Source: Corynebacterium callunae DSM 20147 (GTDB lineage Bacteria > Actinomycetota > Actinomycetes > Mycobacteriales > Mycobacteriaceae). Taken from it: a stretch of DNA of 64,000 nucleotides. The stretch spans positions 1,612,001 through 1,676,000 of the forward strand of contig NC_020506.1 in NCBI RefSeq assembly GCF_000344785.1. Reading direction: 5' to 3'. The notes below the pieces were generated by a model that searched no databases, had not been told where the DNA came from, and saw nothing but the letters and a program-made list of their open reading frames with translations. Both the position numbers and the translations under genes were made by a program. This document shows, piece after piece, positions 7,987 through 55,818 of this stretch; position 1 is the stretch's first letter; the number at the start of each line of letters is the position of its first letter.

Positions 7987-7993
7987 AAAAGTT

Positions 7994-8281
7994 TTAGCCT
8001 TCCTCGTGATCCAACAGACCTGCGTTGATTTCACGCAGTGCGATGGACAATGGCTTCTCACCTGGCTGTGGGGTTACGAGTGGTCCGATGAACTCGAACA
8101 CTCCCTCATCAGCCTGCTGGTAGAAGCTGTTGATCTGACGCGCGCGCTTAGCGGCGAAGATCACGAGCGCATATTTGGAAGTGACCTTATCCAACAGCTC
8201 GTCGATCGGAGGGGCAGTAATGCCCACTGGCGGATCGAAGACGGCCTTGGTGGCGTTGGTCTCGTTGCTCACGTTGGTCAC
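7994..8281 (-). CDS. rpoZ: RNA polymerase omega subunit
   Basis: Small subunit that helps assemble and stabilise RNA polymerase. About 95 residues. It carries the omega core [28 protein letters not shown], in which the run of Ala and Arg after KY is diagnostic, and ends in [15 protein letters not shown]. Three in-frame GTG codons are close together (8287, 8281, 8272); I chose 8281 because AAAGG is five bases upstream. It lies downstream of gmk as in many bacteria, with an 89-base gap, and is followed by a terminator. Confidence 0.95.
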
Positions 8282-8370
8282 TGACACCTTTTCAAAAGTT
8301 TGTAGACAGTAGTTAAAGAGCGGAAAGGATGCTCAATCGACAAAGCATACCTTACCTCCCTGCTATTTGG

Positions 8371-8943
8371 CTAAGCGCCGAGGAGCACATCCTCAATTGC
8401 CTTCACGGCTTTTGCCACATCATCATTAATGATCACGTGCTTAAACTCGCTTTGTGCAGCCAATTCCTCGCGTGCGGTTTCCAGCCTGCGAGCAATGACG
8501 TCTTCACTTTCAGTACCTCGCCCAGTCAATCGATCGACCAAAACTTCCCATGACGGTGGTGCCAGGAAAACGGTTTCAGCCTCGGGCATGAGGCGTGCAA
8601 TATTTCGAGCACCAGCGAGATCAACCTCAACTAGTACTGGACGACCAGCCTGCAGTGCCTCATTTACTGGCCCTGCGGGAGTGCCTGATCGTTGCAATCC
8701 ACCATGAATATCTGCCCATTCGAGCATTTCACCACGGTCGATCTTCGCCTGAAATTGTTCAGCGCTGACATAGAAATAATCTTTGCCTTCTACTTCCCCA
8801 GGACGTGGAGCCCTGGTGGTCATAGAAACACTGAAATACAGGTTTGGAACGTCATTGCGGAGGCGATCAACCACAGTCGACTTTCCGACTGCCGAGGGGC
8901 CCGCAAGAATTACGAGCCGGCCTTGTTGGTTATCGCCCGACAC
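8371..8943 (-). CDS. gmk: Guanylate kinase
   Basis: Phosphorylates GMP to GDP with ATP. The protein has 190 residues. The P-loop [14 protein letters not shown] is at the N-terminus, followed by the GMP-binding signature [22 protein letters not shown] and LEWADIHG. It starts at a GTG only six bases after the mihF stop, so mihF and gmk are probably one transcript, the arrangement known from mycobacteria and corynebacteria. rpoZ follows. Confidence 0.97.
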
Positions 8944-8949
8944 TGAGAA

Positions 8950-9270
8950 TTAGCCTTCGAAGCCGAAGCGCTCGAGTAGGGCGCGACGCTGACGGTCACC
9001 CAGGCCACGCAGACGGCGGGTCTGTGCAATTCCGAGCTCGTCCATGATCTCTTTTGCCTTGACCTTGCCAACCTTTGGAAGAGCCTCGAGAAGAGCGGAG
9101 ACCTTGGTCTTGCCGATGATCTCATCGGACTCAGCCTTATCCAGAACGTCCTTGAGGTTGGTGTTGCCGCGCTTCAGGTTCTCCTTGAGCTCTGCGCGTG
9201 CCTTGCGTGCTTCTGCTGCCTTAGCAAGAGCTGCTTTGCGCTGCTCATCAGTCAACTGTGGAAGGGCCAC
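8950..9270 (-). CDS. mihF: Integration host factor, actinobacterial type (mIHF)
   Basis: Basic nucleoid-associated DNA-binding protein of about 106 residues, unrelated in fold to the enterobacterial IHF heterodimer. The long N-terminal helix is rich in Ala, Lys and Arg (LPQLTDEQRKAALAKAAEAR). The C-terminal helix-two-turn-helix part has LEALPKVGKVKAKEIMDELG and ends RRALLERFGFEG. I placed the start at the GTG at 9270 because GGAGG lies seven bases upstream; the frame stays open for 12 more codons upstream but has no comparable site. In mycobacteria this protein is essential and was found as a factor for phage L5 integration. Confidence 0.95.
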   Translation of the reverse strand: MALPQLTDEQRKAALAKAAEARKARAELKENLKRGNTNLKDVLDKAESDEIIGKTKVSALLEALPKVGKVKAKEIMDELGIAQTRRLRGLGDRQRRALLERFGFEG

Positions 9271-9411
9271 GGGGTTCCTCCGTAATCGTAAGTTTCTAGT
9301 TACCAACGGACACTTTAAGTATCCGGAAATCGAGGGTACACGTGGTGAATGCCAAGCATGTCAGCCTGCGATTTTCGAATAGTCTAGCACTACTTGCACA
9401 AACACAAAGGT

Positions 9412-9468
9412 GGCACCGCCCCTTTCTTGTAAAACCGCTGGTCACAGCGTTACAAAGGAGGCGGTGCC
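9412..9468 (-). terminator. Long hairpin downstream of pyrF
   Basis: Arms GGCACCGCC (9412-9420) and GGCGGTGCC (9460-9468) are perfectly complementary, and an inner CGCTG-gtca-CAGCG stem sits at the tip. It begins six bases after the pyrF stop, so it most likely ends the pyrimidine operon. The T-run after it on the minus strand is weak. The rest of the gap up to 9271 should contain the mihF promoter. Confidence 0.7.
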
Positions 9469-9474
9469 ATTTCT

Positions 9475-10311
9475 TTATGACCTGGGGAAACCTGGAAAGT
9501 CTGTTGCAGTTTTTGCTACAGAATTCCGCAAATTTTCCACATCTGGGCCTTGGGAGAGGACGGATCTGGACACATTTGGGAATGCCAGATGGTTCATATC
9601 TCCGGCAATTTCTGCAATGTCCGCAGCGGTGCCGCCTTGTGCTCCCACACCCGGCATGAGGATGGGTCCATTAAGCGCTGAGAGCTGTGGAGGATTGCTC
9701 AAGGTAGCTCCCACCACCACGCCCACGTTGCCAGCCTTGCCATGAGCTGCATGCCCGGCATTTACCTCTGCTACTGCGTCGATAATCTGCTGGGAAATGC
9801 TGCGTCCATCTGGCCCGACCTGGTCCTGCAACTCCCGTGCTTCAGGATTTGAGGTGGCAGCAAGGACAAATACTCCCCTGCCATGTTCCTCCGCAAGTTC
9901 CAAAACTGGAGCTAAAGAACCAAAGCCGAGATAAGGCGACACGGTTACAGCATCACTAACAAGCGGTGAGGCTGGATCAAGCCATGCAGTGGCATAACCG
10001 GCCATCGTGGAGCCGATATCGCCGCGTTTGGCGTCTGAGACCGCCAAACAGCCCTTTTCACGCAAGGTTCCGATGGTTTCTTCCAGCACGGCGAAACCTT
10101 GGGATCCAAATTGCTCATAAAAGGCAACCTGTGGTTTTACCAATGCCACCGTGTCTGCAAAAGCTTCCACGCAGATGCGTGAGAACTCCGCAAGACCAGC
10201 CACGTTCACGGGCAGCCCCCAGGCCTCCAGCAGGCTTGCGTGAGGATCAATTCCTACGCAGAGCCTGCCCTTCAGCGCAGCGGCGTCGAGAAGCTTCTCG
10301 CCGAATGTCAA
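9475..10311 (-). CDS. pyrF: Orotidine 5'-phosphate decarboxylase
   Basis: Last step of UMP synthesis: decarboxylates OMP to UMP. The 278-residue length and sequence fit the longer mycobacterial-type (type 2) PyrF. The catalytic Lys/Asp motif is VSDAKRGDIGSTM near residue 92, the phosphate-binding end is LMPGVGAQGG near residue 220, and the N-terminus is MTFGEKLLDAAALKGRLCVGIDPH. The start codon is TTG, four bases after the carB stop, which points to translational coupling. It is the last gene of the pyr operon. Confidence 0.95.
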   Translation of the reverse strand: MTFGEKLLDAAALKGRLCVGIDPHASLLEAWGLPVNVAGLAEFSRICVEAFADTVALVKPQVAFYEQFGSQGFAVLEETIGTLREKGCLAVSDAKRGDIGSTMAGYATAWLDPASPLVSDAVTVSPYLGFGSLAPVLELAEEHGRGVFVLAATSNPEARELQDQVGPDGRSISQQIIDAVAEVNAGHAAHGKAGNVGVVVGATLSNPPQLSALNGPILMPGVGAQGGTAADIAEIAGDMNHLAFPNVSRSVLSQGPDVENLRNSVAKTATDFPGFPRS

Positions 10312-43420: not shown

Positions 43421-44383
43421 ATGACCTATGAAGCACTCATTGTTGGCGGCGGGCAATCTGGTTTAGCGACGGCCTACTATCTTTTAAGAGCTGGCGTAGA
43501 CACCCTGGTTCTTGATGATCAGCCCGAACCCGGTGGTGCTTGGCTGCATGTATGGCCTTCAATAACTCTCTTTTCCACCGCGGAGTTTTCAAACCTTCCA
43601 GGCTGGCCCATGCCAGCCTTTGATGGCTTCCCCAACTCTGAGCACGTGGTTAATTACCTCACTGCCTATGAAATGCGCTATTCCATTCCTGTGGAAAGGC
43701 CTGTTCGAGTAACCAAAGTTAGCCAGGATGGTCAAGCTTTTAGAGTTGACTCCCCCACCAAAAGCTACAGCGCACAACATGTTATTGGCGCCACCGGAAC
43801 CTGGTCTGCACCTTTTATCCCAAGCTTCCCCGGCACTTTCACAGGCACCCAATGGCATGCCTCCACTTACCGTGGCATCGCAGAATTTCGTGGCTCCTCA
43901 GTTGCCGTGGTGGGCGCCGCAAACTCCGCTGCCCAAATCGCTGCTGAGCTAAGCTCCGTTGCTGATGTCACCTGGTATACCCGCCATGAACCTCGTTGGA
44001 TGCCCGATGATATTGATGGCCGAGAGCTTTTTAGACGCAACCGCTTACGCGCTCTCGCCATTCAGCGAGGCGAGGAAGATCCCGGTGCAGACTCCAACTT
44101 GGGCGATATTGTCATGCTGCCCGAGGTCTTAAAAGCTCGCGATTCCGGCCGACTTAAAGCAACCCCGCTTTTTAAATCCCTCAATGAAGTCCACACTGAT
44201 CACCTCATTTGGTGCACTGGTTTTAGGCCAGCTCTTAAACCTTTTAGAGGCACTGAAGGCATCCACTACGTGGGTTATGGAGACTGGGTTGGGCCAGGCG
44301 CTGCCACCATCACCGGTGTTGGTCCTTATGCCAAAAGAGCGGCTGCAGCAATTGCCGCAACTGTGGGAAAACGGGTTAAGTAA
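43421..44383 (+). CDS. FAD-dependent monooxygenase-like oxidoreductase (CzcO/flavin monooxygenase type)
   Basis: About 320 residues. The FAD Rossmann motif is ALIVGGGQSGLATAYYLLRAG at the N-terminus; a second dinucleotide motif VVGAANSAAQIAAEL for NADPH lies near residue 160, and WCTGFRPAL, the C-terminal motif of flavoprotein monooxygenases, near residue 263. Substrate unknown. I chose ATG at 43421 over the GTG at 43406 because the FAD motif then begins at the usual distance. The 3' end overlaps the convergent helicase gene by eight bases. Confidence 0.82.
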   Translation: MTYEALIVGGGQSGLATAYYLLRAGVDTLVLDDQPEPGGAWLHVWPSITLFSTAEFSNLPGWPMPAFDGFPNSEHVVNYLTAYEMRYSIPVERPVRVTKVSQDGQAFRVDSPTKSYSAQHVIGATGTWSAPFIPSFPGTFTGTQWHASTYRGIAEFRGSSVAVVGAANSAAQIAAELSSVADVTWYTRHEPRWMPDDIDGRELFRRNRLRALAIQRGEEDPGADSNLGDIVMLPEVLKARDSGRLKATPLFKSLNEVHTDHLIWCTGFRPALKPFRGTEGIHYVGYGDWVGPGAATITGVGPYAKRAAAAIAATVGKRVK

Positions 44384-47018
44384 TGCCCAATCGCGCCCGC
44401 TCTGCGTCGATAATGCTGGCTGCCAATTGAGACTCGGTAATATCCACGGCATCGGGTACCTCGGCGGATTCTGAGAGTCGGGCATAAACGTCAAAGATTT
44501 CCTTTTTGCCAGCCAAGATCTCCAGCATTCTTTCATCGGCGGTTTCATCACCAATTAGGCGGTGTACCTGCACAGTCGCTGTTTGTCCCATGCGGTGCAC
44601 ACGAGCCACGGCCTGCTGTTCGATCGTGGGCTTAACCTGGGGTTCGCAAATAATGCACAAGGAAGCTGCTTGAATATTCAGCCCCACTCCACCGGCACTA
44701 ATCTGCGCAATCAAAGCTGAACCCGCTGGAGCCTGGCTCAGTTCGTCGACAAGCTCTTGTCTTTTTAGGGCCGGCACCTCCCCAGAAATGCGGCCGACCA
44801 CCCGGGCCCCGAGGTGTTTTTCCAGCTCGTCGAGGACATCGAGGAAGAAGGTGAAAATGAGCGCCTTGCGGCCGTGTTCTTCTGCCTCCTCTAGCAGTTC
44901 TTGGATGCGTGCCATTTTGGCGGATACGCCCTGTTCTGGTGGGCTAATCATGGCGACTCGGCGCATACCCATCCAATTTCCGGCGGCAACTTCTGCTTCA
45001 TAAGCGGCGCGATCGGCTGGGGTTAGTTCAATCCAGTCGATTGAATCGGTGCGCTCTGGAAGTTCGTCAAGGACATCAGCTTGATTACGGCGCAAATAGG
45101 CTGGCGCAATGCGTCGCCTAAAATCCTCCGCACCCATGGTGGACATACCAGGCACGATGAGATCTGGCTGGATGTAATTGATGAGGTTAATAAACTCACC
45201 CACCCGATTCTCCAAGGGAGTGCCTGTCATCAAAAGCGCATATTCAGCATCCTTAACCAACTGAGCCAGCGCTTGGCTGCGTTTGGTGGCGGGATTCTTT
45301 ATCAAATGCGCTTCATCAGCAATGATCAATCCCGGCGCGGGAATGTCCATGCTGCGGGCACCATCGTAGGTGCAGACCATAATTCCATTGCTTTTGCTCC
45401 AGGCACTAAGCGCCTCAGTTTTGGCATCACCATGGGCTACAAATACCGGCAAGTCACTAAAGCGGCGACATTCGCGCACCCAGTTAACAATCACAGAGGC
45501 CGGGACCACGACCAAAACTCGGAAATCATTTTTGGTGGCTACAAGGTGTGCCGCCACAGAAATTGCCTGCACCGTTTTACCCAGGCCCATGTCATCGCCA
45601 ATTAAGACCTTTTCACGGACGAGGGCGAAACGTGCGCCATAAGACTGGTATCCACGCAGATGTAGATCTTTGATGTGGGTGGTATCCAATTTAAGCTCAC
45701 GGATACGTTTGAGGGTATCCGCATCCAGCAGTTCCTCATCTGCCTCAAAATCGCGGCCCAAGAGGTTGGACAACAGAGCCTGGTAGTGCGCTGGGCGGGC
45801 GAGGTAGTCTTCCCACACGTCGGCAGCAGGTTCTGTGATGGATTGAGGATAGAAGAGATTGGGATTGGCATTGACCCAGTCCAGATCGGAACTAAATTGT
45901 TCCCAGATCCGAACTCCGCGGTCTGCTCCGCTGCCCACCACAATATAAGGCTGCGCGCTAGGAGTGATGTTTTGAACATAGTCAATAACCCGTGCCCGGC
46001 GCGCGCGTTCGTCTGGGCTTAGTGTTTCTGCCTGGCCAAATTTGCTCAAAATCTTGATGAGCTCCATGGCTGGAGGGGAAGGTTCGGTGCCGATAAAGGT
46101 GGTTTGCCTATTTAGTGCTTCGGTCTCCAGGGTTTGGGCTGCCGCTTTCATTCTTTGGGCAGTCTGTTCACCGATTCCAGAGACGGTGGTAAGCAAGGAA
46201 ACATCGGCGCGCAGCACATCGGCCACGGTGGAAACCCGGATAGAATCTAAGGAACCAAAGCGCAATCGGTGGTCAGTTGCGGTGCGTAGCGCATCAACGG
46301 GCAGTTCTGCCATCAGGATCTGCACTCGACGCCTATTAAGTTCCTCGAGGCAGCGTTTGGCCTCGCCGTATAAGCGGAATTCTGAATTGGGATCTTGGGC
46401 ATAGCGTTGGACTACCCGGCGCGCCTGCACAAGTGATTGTCCATCCCATTGTTGGAAGGCTGGATCAGATAACCCAAGGCTGGTGGCAAGAGCAGCGCGT
46501 GCGGATTCAAGATAGTGCTCGCCTAGTCCATGGACTCCGGGGAAAAGTTCCACGCCTTTTTGTTGGCGCTCACGCGCAAGGTCCGCCACTTCTAAAAGGC
46601 GTCCTACTTCCCTGCCAACTGGATCAGTTTCATCTAGTTTGACCATGAGGTCAAAGGCAGCCTGGTCACCAGCTTGAACCGCGGAAGGGCTAAAGAGCCT
46701 TTTAAGAAGTCCTCCTTGGCCAGCGCGTACCTGCTGTTGCAAACCAGGGATAACGGCAACTGATGCCACATAGGAGCTGAGTTTTTCCGGCGCTCCCAAG
46801 CCATCCAAAAAGAGTTGGATATAAAAATTTACCGGCCAGTTCACTGCTGTTGGCGCAAAAAGGTGCACAGCGGATTCCACATCACCAAAGGTGGTGGGGC
46901 TTTGCACACTGACTTGCCCCTGCGTCTGTAAAAGACGATGTAGCTGAGAGGCTGACTGTGCAGTGTTTAAAGCCTGCTGTGCACGACCAAGCAGGTTAGA
47001 AATCTGGGCGGTGTCCAT
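44376..47018 (-). CDS. SNF2-family DNA translocase/helicase
   Basis: 880 residues. A helix-hairpin-helix (SLLTTVSGIGEQTAQRMK) near residues 278-295 precedes the SNF2 ATPase core: Walker A DDMGLGKTVQAISVA near residue 476, DEAH box IIADEAHLIKNPATKRS near residue 568, and motif VI QQAVARVHRMGQTATVQV near residue 825. The N-terminal 250 residues resemble no domain I recognise. Such proteins remodel protein-DNA complexes or assist repair or restriction, but no methylase or nuclease neighbours it. It is downstream of no operon partner on its strand and converges with the flavoprotein gene. Confidence 0.88.
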   Translation of the reverse strand: MDTAQISNLLGRAQQALNTAQSASQLHRLLQTQGQVSVQSPTTFGDVESAVHLFAPTAVNWPVNFYIQLFLDGLGAPEKLSSYVASVAVIPGLQQQVRAGQGGLLKRLFSPSAVQAGDQAAFDLMVKLDETDPVGREVGRLLEVADLARERQQKGVELFPGVHGLGEHYLESARAALATSLGLSDPAFQQWDGQSLVQARRVVQRYAQDPNSEFRLYGEAKRCLEELNRRRVQILMAELPVDALRTATDHRLRFGSLDSIRVSTVADVLRADVSLLTTVSGIGEQTAQRMKAAAQTLETEALNRQTTFIGTEPSPPAMELIKILSKFGQAETLSPDERARRARVIDYVQNITPSAQPYIVVGSGADRGVRIWEQFSSDLDWVNANPNLFYPQSITEPAADVWEDYLARPAHYQALLSNLLGRDFEADEELLDADTLKRIRELKLDTTHIKDLHLRGYQSYGARFALVREKVLIGDDMGLGKTVQAISVAAHLVATKNDFRVLVVVPASVIVNWVRECRRFSDLPVFVAHGDAKTEALSAWSKSNGIMVCTYDGARSMDIPAPGLIIADEAHLIKNPATKRSQALAQLVKDAEYALLMTGTPLENRVGEFINLINYIQPDLIVPGMSTMGAEDFRRRIAPAYLRRNQADVLDELPERTDSIDWIELTPADRAAYEAEVAAGNWMGMRRVAMISPPEQGVSAKMARIQELLEEAEEHGRKALIFTFFLDVLDELEKHLGARVVGRISGEVPALKRQELVDELSQAPAGSALIAQISAGGVGLNIQAASLCIICEPQVKPTIEQQAVARVHRMGQTATVQVHRLIGDETADERMLEILAGKKEIFDVYARLSESAEVPDAVDITESQLAASIIDAERARLGIT

Positions 47019-47056: not shown

Positions 47057-47089
47057 AATACCTAGGGAATACCTAGGGAATACCTAGAT
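47057..47089. repeat. Three tandem 11-base units overlapping the YhgE stop
   Basis: AATACCTAGGG, AATACCTAGGG and AATACCTAGAT are adjacent between the SNF2 start and the YhgE/Pip gene; the stop codon of the latter (TAG on the minus strand, 47084-47086) falls inside the third unit. Confidence 0.92.
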
Positions 47090-48943
47090 TTTCAGCTCTG
47101 GGTGATAATCCTTCATGCGAACCACCTTGTTCACGCGGTTGGCGATGGTGGAGATAATTAGCATCAAAGCCCAAATCAATGCCAAAACCCAAATTGCTTG
47201 CAGGAAGCGGGGATCGTCATTAGGGGTTTCATTGAAGATCATTTGGCGGATGAGGTTGACCGCATATGTGATGGGGTCATAGGTATGGAACCATTGGAAG
47301 AACTTTGCCTGAGTTTCCACGGGATATAGGCCACCAGATGCTACTAGCTGGAAAGACATCATCACGATGGAAAGCACACGCCCCACTGGTGCACCGCCCA
47401 CGTTATTAAACATATGGGTGATGGAGATGAAGATCCAGGAGATAACCACCATGGCAATCCAGAGCCCGAGTGGGTGTGCTGGATTGAGGTCTAGCAGGTA
47501 GTTAAGAACTACCCACATGAGAGTTGCTTGTCCAAGTCCGAGCACCATTGCTGGCAGGTAGGTTGCCAAGGTGGCACGGAATCCACCGAGGCGGGAATCG
47601 ATAGCGCGACGGCTATGTGGTCGCAGGATCATCCAGGATACTGTCGCTCCCATAAAGAGACCCACGCACATAAAGAATGGTGCCAGGCCAATGCCAAATA
47701 GTGGCAGAGTGTCACCTTGGTGCTCAGTTCCAACAGGGGTAGCAATAGTGGTTTCTGCTCCATCGGCGAAGGTTGGAAGTTTTTCCGCACCATCGCTGAT
47801 TTTTAGGGCCAGCTCATTAGAGCCTTCATCGAGCTGCACGGTGCCATCACGGAGTGCTGTTGCACCGACAACAAGTTGTTCAGATCCGGCTGCTAGTTGG
47901 CTAGTGCCATCGGCAAGGGTGCGGGCACCTACGCTGAGCTGGCTGGAGCCATCTTTAAGTTGCTGCAGGCCGGAAGCAAGAGTCTGGGAGGCTGTTGCTG
48001 CATTATCAATGCCGGAGCGATAAGTGCTGGAAGGGTCTGAAAGCTGGGAAGCAATCGTGGCTGCTCCATCACGCAAGGTAATCAATTGGGTATTGATATC
48101 TGGTGCGAGAGCAGTCAGGGGTGCTACCTGGTCAACCAATTGGCTAACACCATCGGAAACTTGCGTGGCACCATTTCCCAATTCCTCGGTGCCGGCTTCT
48201 AGCTGGCTCATGCCATTAGCTAGGGTCTGGCTACCTGTAGCCGCCTCGCCGATCTTGCTATCGAGCTGGCTGACGCCGTCGGCAAGCGTTTGGGCTCCCT
48301 CGTTGGCCTGGTTGATGCCGTCATTGAGGGTGACTGCGCCGTCGGCAAGAGCAATGGCGCCATCATTGGCGGTGTTCATACCTTCGCTGAGCTGGGTGGC
48401 ACCGTCGGCTGCCTGGGTCATGCCTTCATCGATGGTGGAAAATCCCACGAGCATATTGTCCACAATGCGCGCGCCGAACTCATTGTCCATGCTGTTGACA
48501 ACGGTATTTACTACCTGGTTACCAAGCATGGAAGCAATAAAGCCATTGCTATTATCAAAAACAGCATTAACCGTGGCAGGTTGCGGGTTATCCGTTGCCA
48601 CGCTGGCAATAGAATCGCTGAAGTTTTCCGGAATTTCGATACCAAAATAGTAGGTGCCATCATTGATGCCTGTGCGCGCTTCTTCGGCGCTGACTTCAAT
48701 AAAGTTAATACTGTCCTGGTTGAGTAGGGTTTCAACTACCTGCGAGCCTGCATCAAGCTCACCCTTATCTTCATTGACCACTGCGACCGGCAACTTGGAG
48801 AGTCCGCCGATGGGGTCATAATATGCCCACACAAAAACGCCGCCAAAGAGCAGTGGCATCAACATGACCACCAAAAAGCCCAGGGGTGGCAGTTTTCCGC
48901 GGCCAAATCTTTTTAGTTCAGAACCAAAGTGAATGAGCGCCAT
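47084..48943 (-). CDS. YhgE/Pip-family ABC-2-type membrane protein
   Basis: 619 residues. One N-terminal transmembrane helix (LPPLGFLVVMLMPLLFGGVFVWAYY broken over residues 18-42), a large extracytoplasmic domain, and about five C-terminal helices with the ABC-2 membrane domain (TVSWMILRPHSRRAID, MSFQLVASGGLYPVET). The central region is a regular Gly/Leu/Asp-rich repeat of about 7-11 residues (ADGAVTLNDGINQANEGAQ) that should form a long coiled or rod-like structure. Family members act in phage infection or drug/lipid export; this one is coupled (TAATG) to a degenerate ABC ATPase. Confidence 0.87.
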   Translation of the reverse strand: MALIHFGSELKRFGRGKLPPLGFLVVMLMPLLFGGVFVWAYYDPIGGLSKLPVAVVNEDKGELDAGSQVVETLLNQDSINFIEVSAEEARTGINDGTYYFGIEIPENFSDSIASVATDNPQPATVNAVFDNSNGFIASMLGNQVVNTVVNSMDNEFGARIVDNMLVGFSTIDEGMTQAADGATQLSEGMNTANDGAIALADGAVTLNDGINQANEGAQTLADGVSQLDSKIGEAATGSQTLANGMSQLEAGTEELGNGATQVSDGVSQLVDQVAPLTALAPDINTQLITLRDGAATIASQLSDPSSTYRSGIDNAATASQTLASGLQQLKDGSSQLSVGARTLADGTSQLAAGSEQLVVGATALRDGTVQLDEGSNELALKISDGAEKLPTFADGAETTIATPVGTEHQGDTLPLFGIGLAPFFMCVGLFMGATVSWMILRPHSRRAIDSRLGGFRATLATYLPAMVLGLGQATLMWVVLNYLLDLNPAHPLGLWIAMVVISWIFISITHMFNNVGGAPVGRVLSIVMMSFQLVASGGLYPVETQAKFFQWFHTYDPITYAVNLIRQMIFNETPNDDPRFLQAIWVLALIWALMLIISTIANRVNKVVRMKDYHPELKI

Positions 48944-49620
48944 TAGTTGGCCTCCTTGATGGACCTAGTTGATGCAGCGGAGTCGGTGATCGGCAGGTAG
49001 AAATCGGCGATGTCGTCAAAATCTGGGTTTGGCGAAACCACAACTACAGGCACACTTTCTGAAAGTTCTTTGAGGCTTTCCAAAATCTCGGCCCGCAAAG
49101 TCATGCTGCGTACCTGGTCAGGATCGTCCACAATCAAGGCTGCGGCCTGTGGTCGCGCCACCAAGCTCAGAGCAACGCGCAGCTTAAAACGCTCAACCAC
49201 GCTCAACTCGCCCACCGCTTGGCTCGGATCAAGGTTTAAAGAAAGGTGCTTTGCGACGCTTACCCACTGCTCGTAGGTGTCAATGTTTCTGGGTGTGGGA
49301 CGGTACCAGGGGCTGGCCCACGCGATTTGCTCGCGCACTACGGTGCGCACATTTACCAGACGTTCCAGGGAGTCAATCTCGGAGACTCCCGCGAGCGCAA
49401 TATTTTTTGCAAGGGTGGATGTTTTTGCCGGCTGGCCAGCGAGTTCAATGCTTCCGGCTTTTGCCTTCATGCGTCCACTCAAAACCATGGAAAAGGAGCT
49501 GGCGTGGGATTCACGGCCAGTTTCTAGCAGAGTCAGCCCGCGGGCTGCTGGAATCTCAACATCGGCGAAGTCGGTATCGCGGATGGTGATTCCAAATGTT
49601 GTCAAAATTGGAGTGTTCAT
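48943..49620 (-). CDS. Degenerate ABC ATPase-like protein paired with YhgE/Pip
   Basis: 225 residues with the outline of an ABC ATPase but with all key residues altered. The Walker A site is ETGRESHASS (about residue 33) without the GK[ST]; the LSGGQ signature is LSVVE (139-143); Walker B is ALIVDDP with Asp for Glu; and the switch His is replaced in VVVSPNPDFDD. It probably does not hydrolyse ATP. Its stop overlaps the YhgE/Pip start (TAATG), so both are made in fixed ratio. A TetR regulator is divergent, 114 bases away. A structural partner of the membrane protein is inferred. Confidence 0.72.
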   Translation of the reverse strand: MNTPILTTFGITIRDTDFADVEIPAARGLTLLETGRESHASSFSMVLSGRMKAKAGSIELAGQPAKTSTLAKNIALAGVSEIDSLERLVNVRTVVREQIAWASPWYRPTPRNIDTYEQWVSVAKHLSLNLDPSQAVGELSVVERFKLRVALSLVARPQAAALIVDDPDQVRSMTLRAEILESLKELSESVPVVVVSPNPDFDDIADFYLPITDSAASTRSIKEAN

Positions 49621-49633
49621 TTGTCTTCTTCCC

Positions 49634-49658
49634 TAAGTGGAGGGAACACTATCACTTA
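49634..49658. promoter_or_regulatory. Candidate TetR operator
   Basis: TAAGTG (49634-49639) and CACTTA (49653-49658) are inverted with a 13-base spacer in the divergent gap between the degenerate ABC gene and the TetR gene. Position fits autoregulation and control of the ABC/YhgE pair. Evidence is the symmetry only. Confidence 0.4.
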
Positions 49659-49734: not shown

Positions 49735-50307
49735 ATGCGCACTGATGCACTTGTTCGGCGACAAAAAATCATCATGACCGCCTGCGAGCTTTATCGCAGC
49801 AAGCATCACGATTCATTGACCATGGAAAACATCGCGGAAAAGGCTGGAGTTGGCATTGCCACGCTTTATAGAAATTTCCCAGATCGCTTTTCTTTGGACA
49901 TGGCCTGTGCGCAATTTCTTTTTGAGGGCGTCATTGGTTTAGAGGAAGAAGCCGTGGCTGCCTTTGACAACAATCCCCGCGAAGTCTGGATCTCCTTCAA
50001 TAAGGCACTTATCGATAAAGGCCTAGGGTCCCTCGTGCCGGCCCTTGCACCTCGTAGCCTTGATGAACTTCCCCCCGAAGTTTCAGTGCTGCGTGAAAAA
50101 ACTAAAGTGCTAACCGAGGCCCTTATTGAACATGGGAAAAAGCACAAGCTCGTACATGCAGACATCGATGCTCGCACTTATATTGTGGGCTTAATTACCG
50201 TCTCCCGAACTCCTTTGCCAGCACTTGCCGCTGTTACCGAGAACCTTTCCACCACCCTGCTTGGTATTTTCCTCGCGGGCCTAGAACACGGCGGCCAGCC
50301 GGTGTAG
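49735..50307 (+). CDS. TetR-family regulator
   Basis: 190 residues. The N-terminal helix-turn-helix is clear (RRQKIIMTACELYRSKHHDS, TMENIAEKAGVGIATLYRNF), the rest is an all-helical ligand-binding part with no assignable ligand. It starts behind GGAGG. It is divergent from the degenerate ABC/YhgE pair and most likely represses it; a HEPN-motif/CBS-like protein follows 24 bases downstream, so it may be cotranscribed with it. Confidence 0.88.
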   Translation: MRTDALVRRQKIIMTACELYRSKHHDSLTMENIAEKAGVGIATLYRNFPDRFSLDMACAQFLFEGVIGLEEEAVAAFDNNPREVWISFNKALIDKGLGSLVPALAPRSLDELPPEVSVLREKTKVLTEALIEHGKKHKLVHADIDARTYIVGLITVSRTPLPALAAVTENLSTTLLGIFLAGLEHGGQPV

Positions 50308-50331: not shown

Positions 50332-51048
50332 ATGACTCCCAACATCGACCGAGCTACGCAATTCCTCGCAGCCTTTAACGATATTGAATCCCACCTAAGA
50401 TTCCGCCTTAATGCCGATATCTCCGATTCTTTTCGGTGGATGGTGGGACAAGCTGCAAACCGGCGCCTCATCAATCCAGCCCAGGAAGAAGTCCTGAAGT
50501 CTTTTAGTGAGTTAAGAAACGCCATTAGCCACGGCACTTATCACAACAATAAGCCCATCGCGGACCCCCGACCAGACACCGTGGCCACCATTGAAAAGAT
50601 CCGCGACGTACTACTTAATCCACCCCTAGCTTTAAAAGTTCTGCCAGCACAACAGGTAAAAATCTTCTATAGCAATAGCTCCATCGCCGAAGTCTTGGAG
50701 CTTATCCGCACCACTGAAATTTCCCAGTTCCCCATCTATCAAGATGGCGAATACCTCAGTTTGCTCACCACCAACACCATTGCCCGCTGGATTGCCGCTG
50801 ACCTTAAAGACAACGCGAAGATCAACGCCAAGACAATCAAAGATGTATTGAGGTTTGCAGAAAGCTCAGATACTGCTGTCCTACTTCCTCGCTCCGCCAC
50901 CGCCCAAGAGGTGGTAGATGCCCTAACTAGCCCCGAGCTGCCATGGTCAGTGATCATTACCGAAAACGGCACAAAGCACCAAAAGCCACTGCGTCTAATA
51001 ACGGGTTGGGACCTCCGTCTCCTCCTTGAAAAGCTGGAAAACCCTTAA
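50332..51048 (+). CDS. Protein with HEPN-like RxxxxH motif and two CBS-like domains
   Basis: 238 residues of unknown function. The N-terminal helical part (about residues 1-100) contains ELRNAISHGTY with R62 and H67, the R-x4-H signature of HEPN nucleases. The C-terminal part (about 110-238) looks like a CBS pair: FYSNSSIAEVLELIRTTEISQFPIYQ and AVLLPRSATAQEVVDALTSPELPWSVIIT. CBS pairs bind adenine nucleotides. It follows the TetR gene by 24 bases. An RNA-cutting or nucleotide-sensing role is inferred, not shown; HEPN folds can be inactive. Confidence 0.62.
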   Translation: MTPNIDRATQFLAAFNDIESHLRFRLNADISDSFRWMVGQAANRRLINPAQEEVLKSFSELRNAISHGTYHNNKPIADPRPDTVATIEKIRDVLLNPPLALKVLPAQQVKIFYSNSSIAEVLELIRTTEISQFPIYQDGEYLSLLTTNTIARWIAADLKDNAKINAKTIKDVLRFAESSDTAVLLPRSATAQEVVDALTSPELPWSVIITENGTKHQKPLRLITGWDLRLLLEKLENP

Positions 51049-51100: not shown

Positions 51101-51152
51101 GGTGACATATCAACAAACTTTAGTTAGCAGCCTCCAGAAAGAAGCGCATATC

Positions 51153-52274
51153 ATGCAATTCGGAATTTTCACCATCGGCGATGTCACCGTAGATCCCAAC
51201 ACCGGCAAGGCTCCCACTGAGGCCGAGCGCATTGAGGCAATGACTCAAATTGCCCTCAAGGCAGAAGAAGTTGGATTAGATGTTTTCGCCACCGGCGAGC
51301 ACCACAACCCTCCCTTCGTTCCTTCTTCCCCAACCACTCACCTGGCTTATATCGCAGCAAAGACCGAAAAACTGCTGCTTTCCACCTCTACCACCCTGAT
51401 CACCACCAATGACCCAGTGAAGATTGCCGAGGACTTCGCGTTCTTGCAGCACCTTTCCGGCGGCCGTGTTGATTTGATGATGGGACGCGGAAACACTGGC
51501 CCGGTTTACCCATGGTTTGGCAAGGATATCCGTCAGGGCATCCCACTAGCTATTGAGAACTACCACCTACTGCGTCGTTTGTGGCGTGAGGAAGTAGTGA
51601 ACTGGCAGGGTAAGTTCCGCACTCCATTGCAGGGTTATACCTCTACCCCAGCTCCACTTGATGGTGTTGCGCCTTTCGTTTGGCACGGTTCCATCCGCTC
51701 CACCGAAATTGCAGAACAGGCAGCCTTCTACGGCGATGGCTTCTTCCACAACAACATTTTCTGGAACAAAGAGCACACCGCGCAAATGGTAAACCTCTAC
51801 CGTCAGCGTTTTGAGTACTACGGCCATGGCCAAGCTGATCAGGCCATCGTTGGTCTGGGTGGACAGGCATTTATCGGCGACACCGAAGCAGAGGCCAAGA
51901 AGTTCTTCCGCCCTTACTTCGACAACGCTCCGGTTTATGGCCACGGCCCATCCATGGAGGACTTCACCCGCATGACACCACTGACCGTGGGTACTGCGGA
52001 ACAAGTCATCGAGCGCACTATGGAATTTGCTGACTGGGTGGGCGATTACCAGCGCCAACTATTCTTGGTTGATCACGCCGGTCTGCCACTTGAGGTTGTC
52101 CTGGATCAGATCGAACGTCTGGGTCGCGATGTTGTTCCTGAGGTCCGCCGTCGCATGGAAGAGCGTCGCCCAGATCACGTTCCTTCCGATCCTCCAACCC
52201 ACAGCTCCCTGTTGGCTAACCCAAATAGCCCACACTTCAAGGTAAACCCCGGCCAGCCATCCGATGAGAAATAA
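51153..52274 (+). CDS. LLM-class flavin-dependent monooxygenase, CE1758 family
   Basis: About 373 residues. Luciferase-like TIM-barrel monooxygenase (MQFGIFTIGDVTVDP, GLDVFATGEHHNPPF, HLSGGRVDLMMGRGNTGPVYPWFG) of the family named from C. efficiens CE1758, which always pairs with an FMN reductase. It uses reduced FMN and oxygen; the substrate is unknown. ATG at 51153 sits at the family start; an open frame of 28 codons upstream lacks family sequence. The reductase gene begins nine bases after its stop. Confidence 0.9.
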   Translation: MQFGIFTIGDVTVDPNTGKAPTEAERIEAMTQIALKAEEVGLDVFATGEHHNPPFVPSSPTTHLAYIAAKTEKLLLSTSTTLITTNDPVKIAEDFAFLQHLSGGRVDLMMGRGNTGPVYPWFGKDIRQGIPLAIENYHLLRRLWREEVVNWQGKFRTPLQGYTSTPAPLDGVAPFVWHGSIRSTEIAEQAAFYGDGFFHNNIFWNKEHTAQMVNLYRQRFEYYGHGQADQAIVGLGGQAFIGDTEAEAKKFFRPYFDNAPVYGHGPSMEDFTRMTPLTVGTAEQVIERTMEFADWVGDYQRQLFLVDHAGLPLEVVLDQIERLGRDVVPEVRRRMEERRPDHVPSDPPTHSSLLANPNSPHFKVNPGQPSDEK

Positions 52275-52283
52275 GGAGAGACA

Positions 52284-52970
52284 ATGCGCAAGCTCACTGT
52301 AGTTACTGCAGGTCTATCCAATCCTTCAACCACTCGCTCTGTTGCTGATCAGCTCACCAAAGCAGTTAATGCTGCGGTGACTGCTCGTGGAGAAGCGCTA
52401 GACATCGAAGTTATTGAGATCCGCGATCTCATCTTTGATCTCTCTACCTCCTTCACCAGCGCCGGTATGAGCTCACCAGCACTTGACGCTGCCAAGGAAC
52501 GCCTGGCTAACTCCGATGGTCTTATTGCGGTGACCCCAGTCTTCACCGCTAGCTATTCCGGCATCTTCAAGATGTTCTTTGATGTACTTGATCCCAAGAC
52601 TATTGTGGGTCTGCCTACCATCATTGCGGCATCGGCTGGGTCAGCCCGTCACTCCCTCGTACTAGATCATGCCATTCGCCCGCTGTTTAACTACCTGCGA
52701 GCAGTGGTTGTCCCCACCGGTGTCTTTGCCGCCACCGAGGACTTTGGTACCGAAGCAGGTGCAGATTTTGAAAGGCGAGTTAATCGCGCAGCCGGCGAAC
52801 TAGCAACCCTTATGCTGCAGGATTTCAGCAGCGTGGAGGGTCTAGGCGGCGCAACTGCCAATCAGGACGCGGATCTATCCTTCCGTCGCAATCGCCACAC
52901 CGGCGTAACCCCTGGTGAGAACTTCAGCAGCTTCGCTGATCTTCTCAAAGGCCACGACGGCGCCAGCTAG
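52284..52970 (+). CDS. FMN reductase partner of the LLM monooxygenase, CE1759 family
   Basis: 228 residues, NADPH-dependent FMN reductase fold (VVTAGLSNPSTTRSVADQLTKA at the N-terminus, VTPVFTASYSGIFKMFFDVLD in the middle). It would supply reduced FMN to the upstream monooxygenase. AAGGAGA lies before the ATG. A strong terminator follows 13 bases after the stop, so the pair is a two-gene operon. Confidence 0.9.
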   Translation: MRKLTVVTAGLSNPSTTRSVADQLTKAVNAAVTARGEALDIEVIEIRDLIFDLSTSFTSAGMSSPALDAAKERLANSDGLIAVTPVFTASYSGIFKMFFDVLDPKTIVGLPTIIAASAGSARHSLVLDHAIRPLFNYLRAVVVPTGVFAATEDFGTEAGADFERRVNRAAGELATLMLQDFSSVEGLGGATANQDADLSFRRNRHTGVTPGENFSSFADLLKGHDGAS

Positions 52971-52983
52971 AAACTGAACACAA

Positions 52984-53028
52984 TGCCCGTCACCCCGTGT
53001 AAAAACACACAGGGTGGCGGGCATTTTT
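52984..53028 (+). terminator. Terminator of the LLM/FMN-reductase operon
   Basis: GCCCG-t-CACCC and GTGT pair with ACAC and GGGTG-g-CGGGC around an A-rich tip, followed by ATTTTT. The stem starts 15 bases after the reductase stop. The rest of the gap to sdaA (53138) should contain the sdaA promoter; I see no clear site. Confidence 0.9.
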
Positions 53029-53138
53029 CACTTTCCGCGTGGGAAAACCACCTAAACAAAACTAGATGGCTAAAATCGGGCGAATCCTATTCAGTTCAAA
53101 TTCTATTTTGCACCTAAAGTAAAGGCCCACCTTCAGCC

Positions 53139-54488
53139 ATGGCAATTAGCGTTGTAGATCTTTTTAGTGTCGGTATCGGACCATCATCCTCCCATACCGT
53201 CGGCCCCATGCGAACGGCATTGGAGTTTATCAAGCACTCCCCCAGTGAGCATGTGGATATTGTGCTGCACGGTTCGCTGGCTGCAACAGGTAAAGGCCAC
53301 AGCACAGATCGTGCGGTGTTATTGGGTCTGGTGGGATGGGAACCCACCACCGTGCCTATCGACGCGGCCCCCATCCCCGGCGCACCGATTCCAGCCGAGG
53401 GAACAGTCAGCGGTCCCCTCGGCACAATAAGTTATTCACTCACCTTTGATCCAACGCCTCTTAAAGAACATCCAAATGCAGTTACCTTCAAGGGCAGCAG
53501 CACCCGCACTTATCTTTCAGTGGGCGGTGGCTTCATTCTGAGCCTTGAGGAACTGCTAGATCGTGGACCGCTCGGCTCTGGTGCATCAACTGTTCACCCA
53601 GAAGTGGTTTTGACCAAACCTTTTAAAACTGCAGCCCAGTTACTCTCCTTTGAAGAAGACTTTGCAAAGGTCATGGAGGTTAATGAAACCGCCATTCATG
53701 GCGACATTAATAAGGTTTATGCGCACTTGGATCACGTATGGAAGATTATGCAGGACTGTGTGGCTCAAGGCATCGCAACTCCTGGCACCTTGCCTGGTGG
53801 GTTGAATGTCTCCCGGCGCGCGCCGATGGTGCATGACCTGGTCAAAGGTAAGCACAATATCGCATTGGGTTCTTCCCTCGACGCCATGGAGTGGGTCAAC
53901 CTTTATGCCTTGGCTGTCAATGAGGAAAATGCTGCCGGTGGTCGCGTGGTTACCGCACCAACCAATGGTGCTGCCGGAATTATCCCGGCTGTCATGCATT
54001 ATGCACGCGATTTCCTGGCCGGTTTTGATGGAGAAAAAGCTCGTATTTTCCTTATGACCGCAGGTGCAGTGGGCATTATCATCAAGGAAAATGCCTCAAT
54101 TTCCGGCGCAGAAGTAGGATGCCAGGGTGAGGTTGGTTCTGCGTCCGCTATGGCAGCTGCCGGCCTTTGTGCGGTGCTAGGTGGAAATCCGCAGCAGGTG
54201 GAAAACGCCGCGGAGATCGCCTTGGAGCACAACTTGGGGCTTACCTGCGATCCAGTCGGCGGCTTGGTGCAGATTCCATGCATTGAGCGCAACGCTATTG
54301 GCGCGGTCAAAGCTATTAATGCCGCACGCCTGGCTCGTATCGGCGAGGGAAATAACCGCGTGAGCTTGGACGATGTAGTGGTGACCATGGCGGCTACGGG
54401 TCGCGACATGCTCACCAAATATAAGGAAACCTCCATGGGTGGTTTGGCAACCACCCTCGGTTTCCCCGTCAACTACACCGAGTGTTAG
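53139..54488 (+). CDS. sdaA: L-serine ammonia-lyase (L-serine dehydratase)
   Basis: Converts L-serine to pyruvate and ammonia with a [4Fe-4S] cluster. 449 residues, single-chain form with fused beta and alpha domains. The N-terminus has [25 protein letters not shown]; the Cys ligands lie in the C-terminal half ([34 protein letters not shown]). Such enzymes are oxygen-sensitive and a known serine-degrading route in C. glutamicum. It converges on hisS and the palindrome between the two stops could end both transcripts. Confidence 0.96.
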
Positions 54489-54498
54489 GGCGAGGGGC

Positions 54499-54522
54499 GC
54501 GTCGAAAAGCGCTTTTCGACGC
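54499..54522. repeat. Perfect palindrome between sdaA and hisS
   Basis: A 24-base perfect palindrome with the core GTCGAAAAGCGCTTTTCGAC lies between the convergent sdaA and hisS stops. The same core follows aspS at 40359-40380, and partial copies occur at 18745-18762 (inside the SDR gene) and near 57604. Confidence 0.9.
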
Positions 54523-54528
54523 AAACCT

Positions 54529-55818
54529 CTAGCTCTCTAGTTTGTCCTGCAAGAACTGCAAAACTCCATCAAGGGCAACATCGTACTGCTCATGCGCGCG
54601 CATGTTCTTGATAGCGATGGAGTCATTCTCCAGCTCCTGCTCGCCGAGCACGAGGGTGTAGAGCGCGCGGGAGCGATCAGCGCCCTTCATCGCGCCCTTT
54701 AGACCTCGGTCACCATAGGACATATCGGCAGAAATACCTGCCGCACGCAGCTGATTAATAACCACAGCTAGAACTTCCTTGGCTTCGGCGCCAAGTGCGA
54801 CACCATAAACATCAACACGACGCTCAGCGCCTACGGTGACACCCTCGGCTTCCAAAGCAAGCAAAGTGCGATCCACACCGAGGCCGTAACCGATGCCGGA
54901 AAGGTCCTGTCCGCCAAGCTGTGCCATGAGGCCGTCATAACGACCACCACCACCGATGCCGGATTGTGCACCCAGGCCATCGTGAACAAACTCAAAACAG
55001 GTCTTGGTGTAGTAGTCAAGACCGCGCACCATGCGTGGGTTGACCTCATAAGGCACACCCATATCGTCCAGTAGACCGGTGACAGTCTCGAAGTGCTCGC
55101 GGCAATCCGCATCCAGGTGATCAAGCATCAATGGTGCATCCGCAGTCATTTCCTTGACCTCTGGGCGTTTATCATCAAGCACACGCAGTGGATTGAGCTC
55201 CGCACGCTTGCGAGTCTCCTCATCCAATGGCAAAGCAAAGAGGAAATCCTGCAGCTTCTGGCGGTAGGCCGGACGGCAGTTACGGTCACCAAGGCTGGTG
55301 AGCTCCAGACGGAAACCCTTTAGTCCGAGGCTGCGGTAGGAACGATCCGCCAAGGCAATGATCTCAGCATCTAGTGCTGGATCATCGATACCAATGGCCT
55401 CGACACCAACCTGCTGCAGCTGGCGGTAACGGCCAGCCTGTGGACGCTCATAACGGAAGAAAGGACCTGCATAGTTGAGCTTTACGGGAAGTTGACCGCG
55501 GTCCAAGCTGTGTTCAATAACTGCACGCATGACACCAGCGGTACCTTCTGGACGCAGGGTAACGGAACGATCACCGCGGTCAGCAAAGGTATACATTTCC
55601 TTGCTCACCACGTCGGTAGATTCACCAACGCCACGGGCAAAAAGTCCGGTGTCTTCAAAGATTGGCAGCTCAATGTGCTCAAAGCCAGCATTATGTGCCT
55701 GCTGAATAAAGTTATCGCGTACTGCTAGGAATGCAGCAGACTGTGGAGGGGTGTAATCAGGTACACCCTTAGGGGCAGTAAAGGGCTGAATCTTCTCGGA
55801 CTTTTTCTGTTCACTCAC
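54529..55818 (-). CDS. hisS: Histidyl-tRNA synthetase
   Basis: Charges tRNA-His. 429 residues: class II core with motif 2 [21 protein letters not shown] near residue 84 and [21 protein letters not shown], HisA-type motif [14 protein letters not shown] near residue 294, and the C-terminal anticodon-binding domain. It is downstream of the MBL hydrolase gene on the same strand, 51 bases away, an order seen in corynebacteria. Confidence 0.97.

Follow-up and report, generated by a model that had tools for sequence, protein, structure and literature searches.

A predicted HEPN-CBS protein encoded behind a putative CssR-type repressor in Corynebacterium callunae, and its family

Fusions of HEPN and CBS domains, with or without an HD domain, were noted in 2013 in a survey in which nucleotides were proposed to regulate RNA stability (PMC3710099). 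In 2026, in the DefensePredictor study, anti-phage defence was shown for DS-11, a one-protein CBS plus HEPN system of E. coli, and this defence is lost when the HEPN catalytic residues are mutated or when the CBS residue Y157 is replaced with alanine (PMC13092281). In the same report, Y157 is a predicted adenine contact, and gating of the HEPN domain by an adenine derivative was proposed (PMC13092281).

A third relevant description comes from C. glutamicum, where ncgl1579 shares a transcript with the gene of the TetR repressor CssR, opposite which lies the divergent ABC operon ncgl1576-ncgl1577 (PMC8176726). In that study, gentamicin and cadmium cause a strong rise of the NCgl1579 protein, and a cssR deletion strain contains similarly high NCgl1579 while its growth is almost identical (PMC8176726). 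The "CBS" of NCgl1579 was taken there as cystathionine beta-synthase, and a role in cysteine synthesis was suggested; four further species, C. callunae among them, were said to have nearly the same locus organisation (PMC8176726).

Here we describe the C. callunae gene found at such a locus. It lies in a 64,000-nucleotide stretch, the whole of which is called the window below, in a genome of 2.93 Mb in three contigs. The features of the locus are collected in Table 1.

Table 1. Features of the HEPN-CBS locus, in window positions
Feature	Position	Strand	Evidence
SNF2 helicase, DpdE/DrmD-like	44376..47018	-	PADLOC DpdE/DrmD, about 430 bits
YhgE/Pip-type permease, NCgl1576 counterpart by layout	47084..48943	-	NCBIfam TIGR03061 and TIGR03062 above cut-off
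Degenerate ABC ATPase-like protein, NCgl1577 counterpart by layout	48943..49620	-	Pfam ABC_tran, E 0.0057
Palindrome TAAGTG-N3-G-N5-C-N3-CACTTA, putative CssR-type operator	49634..49658	.	pattern match
TetR-family repressor, CssR counterpart	49735..50307	+	Pfam TetR_N and TetR_C_43; layout as in PMC8176726
HEPN-CBS protein gene (P0001)	50332..51048	+	ORF with ATG start, 238 aa; genus-wide matches
HEPN domain (predicted), residues 1-98, four helices	50332..50625	+	domain-alone AF2 model, structure matches, HepT-like Pfam
L61-R62-N63-x3-H67 motif, presumed catalytic	50512..50532	+	conservation; alignment with HepT and 6dtd
CBS pair (Bateman module), residues 97-238	50620..51045	+	Pfam CBS; VIA structure matches
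P134-I135-Y136 of the first CBS motif	50731..50739	+	P134 152/152, Y136 151/152
Downstream anchor: LLM monooxygenase, FMN reductase, sdaA (+), hisS (-)	51150..55818	.	LLM and FMN reductase by Pfam/NCBIfam; sdaA and hisS presumed from their sequence

Domain anatomy and the LRNxxxH motif

The first-pass annotation had read R62-N-A-I-S-H67 (codons 50515-50532) as the R-x4-H signature. The pattern is indeed present, but in its bare form it is insignificant, because 22.7% of 20,000 shuffles of the 238-aa protein contained it by chance. In the same shuffles, RN...H arose in 1.5% and LRN...H (L-R-N-x3-H) in 0.21%. Conservation of R62 and H67 among homologues, which had been proposed as a check, turned out to be complete: R62, N63 and H67 are each found in 152/152 distinct full-length family sequences, the window's included, and L61 in 151/152. 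In the same set, the residues of the CBS part range from P134 and Y136 (Table 1) to W153 (149/152), T146 (145/152) and D227 (129/152). The set is limited to sequences that match 190 or more model positions, and the truncated plasmid copies L197, L198 and L199 and the later relatives L266 and L267 stand outside it. Peptide patterns, one of them containing the motif, had been used to fetch the loci of 45 of the 152 sequences; in a recount without these 45, R62, N63 and H67 were present in 107/107.

Two alignments gave the same picture. Alignment A1, whose 62 rows were picked from the loci fetched by then and not from all 112 matching genomes, has 12 invariant columns, L61, R62, N63 and H67 among them. 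Alignment A2 (32 rows) adds Micromonospora, Marmoricola, Planococcus, Alkalihalobacterium, Oceanobacillus, Rhodococcus and a Chloroflexota plasmid, and its invariant columns are F11, L55, L61, R62, N63, H67, A77, P79, P97, P134, Y136 and G213. Judged by sequence conservation in the family, and not by the bare pattern, the motif is more than a chance occurrence.

The structure lists of the full-length model (pLDDT 92.7, pTM 0.84) held CBS matches only, among the matches listed, and the HEPN part was therefore modelled alone. The resulting AF2 model consists of four helices with a pLDDT of 83.5. Foldseek ranks 1-27 of this domain were all chains of HEPN entries, at E 0.25 or worse. VIA ranks 1-18 were HEPN-type, either by title or by the table in the 2013 survey (PMC3710099). 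With the VIA aligner, helical bundles with Z under about 13 may share just an arrangement, and the values here are 1wwp, Z 10.1 (rmsd 3.6, 93 aligned), as the best match, then 5yep HepT, 8.6 (3.6, 94), 1jog, 8.1 (3.5, 93), 2hsb, 7.6 (2.7, 90), sacsin HEPN, 7.5 (3.3, 95), and the MtlR complex, 7.1 (2.9, 88). Rank 19 was 2jpu (Z 6.8), which bears no family name, followed by designed coiled coils at Z 5.9 and below. The comparison with HEPN folds, also proposed as a check, thus returned a HEPN-like bundle in both searches, with modest scores.

Profiles pointed in the same direction. A PDB profile search with residues 1-98 (77 rows, E up to 10) gave 13 matches, and the best 4 of the 13 were 6dtd (titled "nuclease", which we take to be a Cas13b) and three HepT entries, at E 0.013-0.045. 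In the three alignments shown, LRNxxxH falls on the LRNxxxH of HepT and on RNAFSH of 6dtd. When each A1 sequence was scanned alone against Pfam at E up to 1, HepT-like models matched 40/62 members (best 5.5e-5), HEPN_RiboL-PSP 27/62 (best 0.0014) and HEPN_MAE_28990 11/62 (best 0.0068); the next family was DUF6953, with 8/62. Among 20 mainly Bacillales members, RiboL-PSP matched 6, HepT-like 6, Apea 3 and Cthe2314 2. The window protein alone gave no Pfam HEPN match at E up to 10. The HEPN domain is accordingly worded here as a prediction, which draws on the agreement of motif, profiles and fold, every single score being modest.

The CBS pair was recovered more directly, in line with the earlier suggestion for the C-terminus. 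Pfam found one CBS motif in the window protein (E 9e-5, 23.2 bits versus a curated cut-off of 24), and at E up to 1 it matched 56/62 A1 members (best 3.7e-13); the mainly Bacillales set was matched in 20/20. VIA aligned residues 97-238 with CBS pairs at Z 11.5-13.7 among the 50 matches listed. These were, for example, 2rc3 (Z 13.7, rmsd 2.7, 123 aligned), MJ0100 (13.0, 2.5, 118), AcuB with ADP (13.0, 2.8, 122) and an AMPK-gamma pair with AMP (12.3, 3.7, 134), and the matches include AcuB with Ap4A, ADP or AMP as well as AMPK-gamma. Searches of NCBIfam, PADLOC (E up to 10) and PDB sequences with the window protein alone gave one weak match, of CBS type, in NCBIfam. The HEPN-CBS protein had weak matches only in PHROGs (E 0.1 or worse) and none at E 0.001 or below among BFVD structures, where the top match was a Megaviridae CBS protein.

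The usual CBS motif carries an acidic residue of the ribose-binding kind. The second CBS motif of the family keeps the residue (D227), and the first is mostly without it: position 149 is mostly T, A or G, with D in 8/152. Y136 is a candidate counterpart of DS-11 Y157. Two relatives lack this tyrosine, L202 (V; gene at 1456-2196) and, by eye, L267 (R; 7989-8714), and they may sense another ligand because the residue is otherwise nearly invariant in the CBS part.

The CssR-type locus

The first-pass annotation had placed the gene beside a TetR gene and an ABC/YhgE pair, and so it stands: the TetR gene ends 24 nt upstream of the HEPN-CBS gene, the two probably forming one operon, and the ABC/YhgE pair is divergent. 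All three features of the CssR operon are present in the window, namely a TetR gene directly upstream, a divergent ABC pair and a 25-bp operator-type palindrome between them. The palindrome, TAAGTG-GAG-G-GAACA-C-TAT-CACTTA, is perfect and lies between the ABC and TetR genes; the published CssR operator pattern is TAA(G)TGN3GN5CN3CA(G)TTA, 25 bp (PMC8176726).

Within the 64-kb window, this palindrome is the sole site with at most one mismatch to the pattern used. Sites with up to three mismatches occur at chance level (35 found versus 32.6 expected). When 3000 stretches of 240 bp were drawn at random from the window, 138 of them held a site with at most three mismatches, and 8 held one with fewer than two, all at zero mismatches, as expected from the palindrome itself. 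Among 15 other loci with an upstream TetR gene, L071-L073 have the operator palindrome with one mismatch, and at a comparable position L034, L045, L076 and L078 have three-mismatch palindromes. The three-mismatch site of L064 is farther off, and L148 and L156 have four-mismatch sites only. In L048, L059, L061, L142 and L152, no operator-type site was found.

The window locus matches the C. glutamicum cssR locus, and by layout, operator and species list the HEPN-CBS gene corresponds to NCgl1579. The protein of C. glaucum (L170), a species named in PMC8176726 as having a similar protein, belongs to the HEPN-CBS family. By layout, the degenerate ATPase and YhgE pair corresponds to the drug- and metal-protective operon published there (PMC8176726). 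By eye, the ABC ATPase-like protein is without the Walker A lysine.

Distribution and neighbours of the relatives

Within the genus, 112/201 genomes gave a match, the window's own included, and 89/201 gave none. The surroundings were counted in 108 distinct loci, a set without duplicates of one gene and without 17 loci set aside (L065, L172, L175, L178, L182, L187, L189-L191 and L193-L200); two of the 108, L126 and L155, are MAGs labelled Mycobacteriaceae and Actinomycetales and not Corynebacterium. Downstream, in the same arrangement, hisS occurs in 98/108 loci, sdaA in 79/108 and LLM in 63/108. At least one of the three is found downstream in 107/108 loci, and the exception, L038, has 5-kb flanks only. 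The description of this place as the most accessory part of the window therefore does not fit the HEPN-CBS gene, since 107/108 loci keep downstream neighbours; yet matches occur in only 112/201 genomes. On these conserved downstream settings, a mobile accessory gene in this genus was rejected.

Upstream, the counts are lower bounds, because at least 8 kb of upstream DNA was present in 77/108 loci, 4-8 kb in 27 and less in 4. A TetR gene lies within 0.9 kb in at least 9/108 loci, and ABC and YhgE genes lie upstream in at least 18/108 each. Given these numbers, the CssR unit looks like a later neighbour of the gene. A divergent SNF2 helicase gene is found upstream in at least 35/108 loci.

Outside the genus, the Planococcus order gave a match at E 1e-10 or better in 115/200 genomes, one per genome in the rows listed, with four (G789, G801, G805 and G839) lacking the HEPN part and a few more incomplete. 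In 26 mainly Bacillales loci, the surroundings recur, and no obligate or conserved partner was seen. An ABC ATPase and permease pair is often near the gene in the Planococcus order (permease cluster c2 in 15/26 loci, these being L244-L263 and six others); it differs from the YhgE pair of Corynebacterium and may be there by chance. A FastTree tree separates a Corynebacterium-rich side from a Bacillales-rich side, its deep, long branches being unsure.

Wider searches depended on the query. A phylum search with A2 gave matches in 124/246 genomes, most of the matches listed covering the CBS part alone; among those listed, the sole near-full-length match besides the window's own genome was in G484. 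A genome-contig scan with the single protein P0001 found no relative, and the scan with A1 found 87, of which 80 were kept. A viral-contig scan found none with A2 and one, L267, with alignment A5; for the HEPN-CBS protein of L267, Pfam at E up to 0.01 gave nothing. A match on a Pseudomonas plasmid (H15, E 0.6) was taken as chance, since its frame resembles a coiled-coil protein. HEPN-CBS genes also occur in wastewater "phage" records (Enterococcus, Listeria), in L200 at 8995-9699 and in L266 at 595-1275. The phage label of L200 is doubtful, because its formate-tetrahydrofolate ligase and signal peptidase II neighbours look host-chromosomal.

Outside the conserved settings, strong defence models or annotated systems stand within about 5.5 kb at 7/15 independent loci (L065, L196, L197/L199, L198, L187, L267 and L175), a count of one locus per independent case, with one to three hand-picked neighbours at most loci, that is not a controlled rate. 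No rate is claimed because the scanned neighbours were chosen by hand. Left out of the 15 were L100-L103, L178, L266 and Bacillales loci with few shared neighbours (e.g. L250, L251, L259). For orientation, the E. coli study gives 2% of all genes as lying within ten genes of a known defence gene (PMC13092281).

The defence neighbours are varied. In C. alimapuense, a second, 30%-identical copy (L065) lies 0.7 kb from a 585-aa gene resembling the PglW N-terminus (E 1.5e-118). On the C. glutamicum plasmid pBL90, a broken copy adjoins SIR2 and HerA genes (HerA E 6e-176), and on two Rhodococcus plasmids shortened copies lie about 3-6 kb from restriction-modification genes. On a Chlorohelix plasmid, the copy comes immediately after an Eco57I-type methylase gene, and a type III methyltransferase lies 3.4 kb off. 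In Planococcus (L187) the HEPN-CBS gene follows a GmrSD gene; in Micromonospora (L175) a type I restriction gene lies about 5.3 kb off, together with a PD-T4-6-like protein kinase; and in the IMG/VR contig L267 a YobI/Tmn NTPase lies about 1.7 kb off. The eight loci without a strong system are L195/L104 and L172, with helicase or HNH neighbours (weaker or general models), L182 and L202, with integrase neighbours, and L189/L190, L191, L194 and L200, with housekeeping neighbours among the few scanned. Several relatives outside the conserved settings thus look like cargo.

C. alimapuense holds two HEPN-CBS genes in all, one at the usual locus (L082/L153) and the divergent L065 (4983-5711). The pBL90 copy (L198) spans 9001-9513 and the Rhodococcus copies (L197, L199) about 8940-9460. 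Damage in plasmid copies takes the form of an internal stop or of adjoining IS21 genes, and such broken copies suggest that mobile copies are often lost.

Proposed function and comparison with described systems

The earlier HEPN plus CBS interpretation is supported; RNase activity, ligand and biological role are proposed for the window protein. We consider it reasonably probable that the protein is a latent HEPN RNase under the control of an adenine-type ligand, that it probably serves defence, and that drugs and metals induce it here. The computed observations behind this reading are the domain anatomy, the invariant motif, the conserved locus, the defence genes near relatives and the operator match.

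In the proposed mechanism, two copies would pair through their HEPN domains, as in the HEPN family, and R62 and H67 of both would build one RNA-cleaving site. The CBS pair, with Y136 in its pocket, would bind an adenine-type nucleotide and so hold or release that site, a step for which DS-11 is the precedent. The default state would be latent. A change in nucleotide level or a signal nucleotide, for example upon phage infection, would switch the enzyme on, RNA would be cut, and growth or phage multiplication would stop. In the C. glutamicum clade, layout and operator suggest that the gene stands behind a CssR-type repressor; antibiotics and heavy metals would therefore raise the amount of the protein. 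As the C. glutamicum counterpart is abundant in healthy derepressed cells, it should be latent by default, or inactive. The almost identical growth with high NCgl1579 leans towards a protein that is non-toxic by default, which fits either a gated or an inactive enzyme.

Three observations speak against this reading. A phage-defence gene would not usually sit in recurrent chromosomal settings such as those in Corynebacterium and in the Planococcus order; residue 149 of the first CBS motif is mostly not acidic, and L202 and L267 are without Y136; and the window protein has no Pfam HEPN match, its HEPN scores in Foldseek, the PDB profile search and VIA being modest.

The first of these observations brings up the most serious alternative, which we nevertheless hold to be unlikely. 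It says that the protein is a chromosomal stress or RNA-turnover RNase, in which adenine nucleotides tune HEPN cleavage so that translation is adjusted when drugs, metals or energy shortage stress the cell, with no anti-phage role. Stable synteny at 107/108 distinct genus loci, the one match per genome in 115/200 Planococcus-order genomes with recurrent neighbours and no obligate partner, and the induction of the CssR-controlled protein by drugs and metals in C. glutamicum (PMC8176726) all agree with such a role. It accounts less well for the known defence genes near relatives elsewhere (7/15 loci) and for the 89/201 genus genomes without a match, and the sole CBS plus HEPN protein known to have been tested in print is anti-phage (PMC13092281).

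A regulator whose HEPN domain is non-catalytic and serves binding or dimerising, as may hold for MtlR-like proteins, is quite improbable. The cssR deletion strain of C. glutamicum grows almost identically despite high NCgl1579 (PMC8176726), and the MtlR complex is among the structural matches. However, R62, N63 and H67 are invariant in 152/152 sequences, whereas the 2013 survey describes several HEPN families in which the Rx4-6H motif is absent or partial (MtlR 60%) (PMC3710099).

Still less probable, and in our view very much so, is the toxin of a toxin-antitoxin pair with a separate antitoxin, be it an MNT nucleotidyltransferase or the TetR or ABC neighbour, even though the HEPN fold resembles HepT toxins and another gene ends 24 nt upstream. 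A search with the PF01909 model alone gave a sole match in the genome, about 197 kb away in a 700-aa frame; this non-adjacent match led us to reject an MNT-type pair. As for the other neighbours, a TetR gene lies within 0.9 kb in only 9/108 genus loci (a lower bound), no conserved partner was seen in the 26 mainly Bacillales loci, and the C. glutamicum TetR gene can be deleted with almost identical growth (PMC8176726). The cystathionine beta-synthase-related role in cysteine synthesis suggested for NCgl1579 (PMC8176726) is barely conceivable and, as an enzyme, rejected, for all that the protein has in common with it is the abbreviation and a regulatory CBS module: in the window protein Pfam finds CBS alone (E up to 10), in its relatives it also finds HEPN families (E up to 1), the structural matches hit the C-terminal CBS region of that enzyme (chain residues about 327-549), and the 238 aa are covered by HEPN and CBS-pair models, with no PLP-dependent domain.

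Returning to the gated, probably defensive RNase, a broader generalisation can be drawn, which we put forward as doubtful: across large parts of Corynebacterium and of the Planococcus order, chromosomes would carry a HEPN-CBS immune-type RNase as a fixed gene, which in the C. glutamicum clade would stand behind a drug- and metal-sensing repressor. If this were true, translation-targeting antibiotics would fill the cell with latent RNase ready to be triggered by a nucleotide signal, and a single switch would act in both drug tolerance and phage defence, coupling the sensing of chemical attack to an immune effector. An unassigned, misread gene of an industrial model bacterium becomes a candidate switchable RNase open to test. 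Its gating, ligand and phage effect are directly testable, because an NCgl1579 antibody, the cssR deletion strain and inducing conditions are in print. The family also indicates that CBS plus HEPN proteins have a wide distribution and a long chromosomal history that extend beyond the E. coli system with shown defence, and that the question of the DS-11 ligand can be put in a second, very different host.

Compared with described systems, the HEPN-CBS architecture (2013, PMC3710099) and CBS plus HEPN defence (2026, PMC13092281) are known already. The 2013 fusions share with the window protein the idea of nucleotide-responsive RNA degradation; the table of the survey places alr3009 (CBS plus HD) among the Swt1-like entries, and its text mentions a Pelobacter protein (PMC3710099). 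Unlike them, the window family gave no match to HD, and its HEPN matches tend towards the HepT-like or RiboL-PSP models. With the HepT of HepT-MntA the window protein has in common the HEPN fold and the LRNxxxH motif, but it differs in its fused CBS sensor and in having no MNT partner nearby. The likeness to DS-11 is one protein with both HEPN and CBS domains; in contrast, the available account of DS-11 describes no drug-sensing repressor (PMC13092281). With cssR-ncgl1579 and ncgl1576-ncgl1577, the window locus shares gene order, a TetR gene, a divergent ABC pair and the 25-bp operator type, and the available part of the C. glutamicum study reports deletion of cssR and of ncgl1576-ncgl1577, with ncgl1579 kept (PMC8176726). 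What is new, within the searches made, is the wide, chromosomally kept family, its company of defence genes in other places, a new assignment for NCgl1579 and the pairing of such a gene with a drug-sensing repressor.
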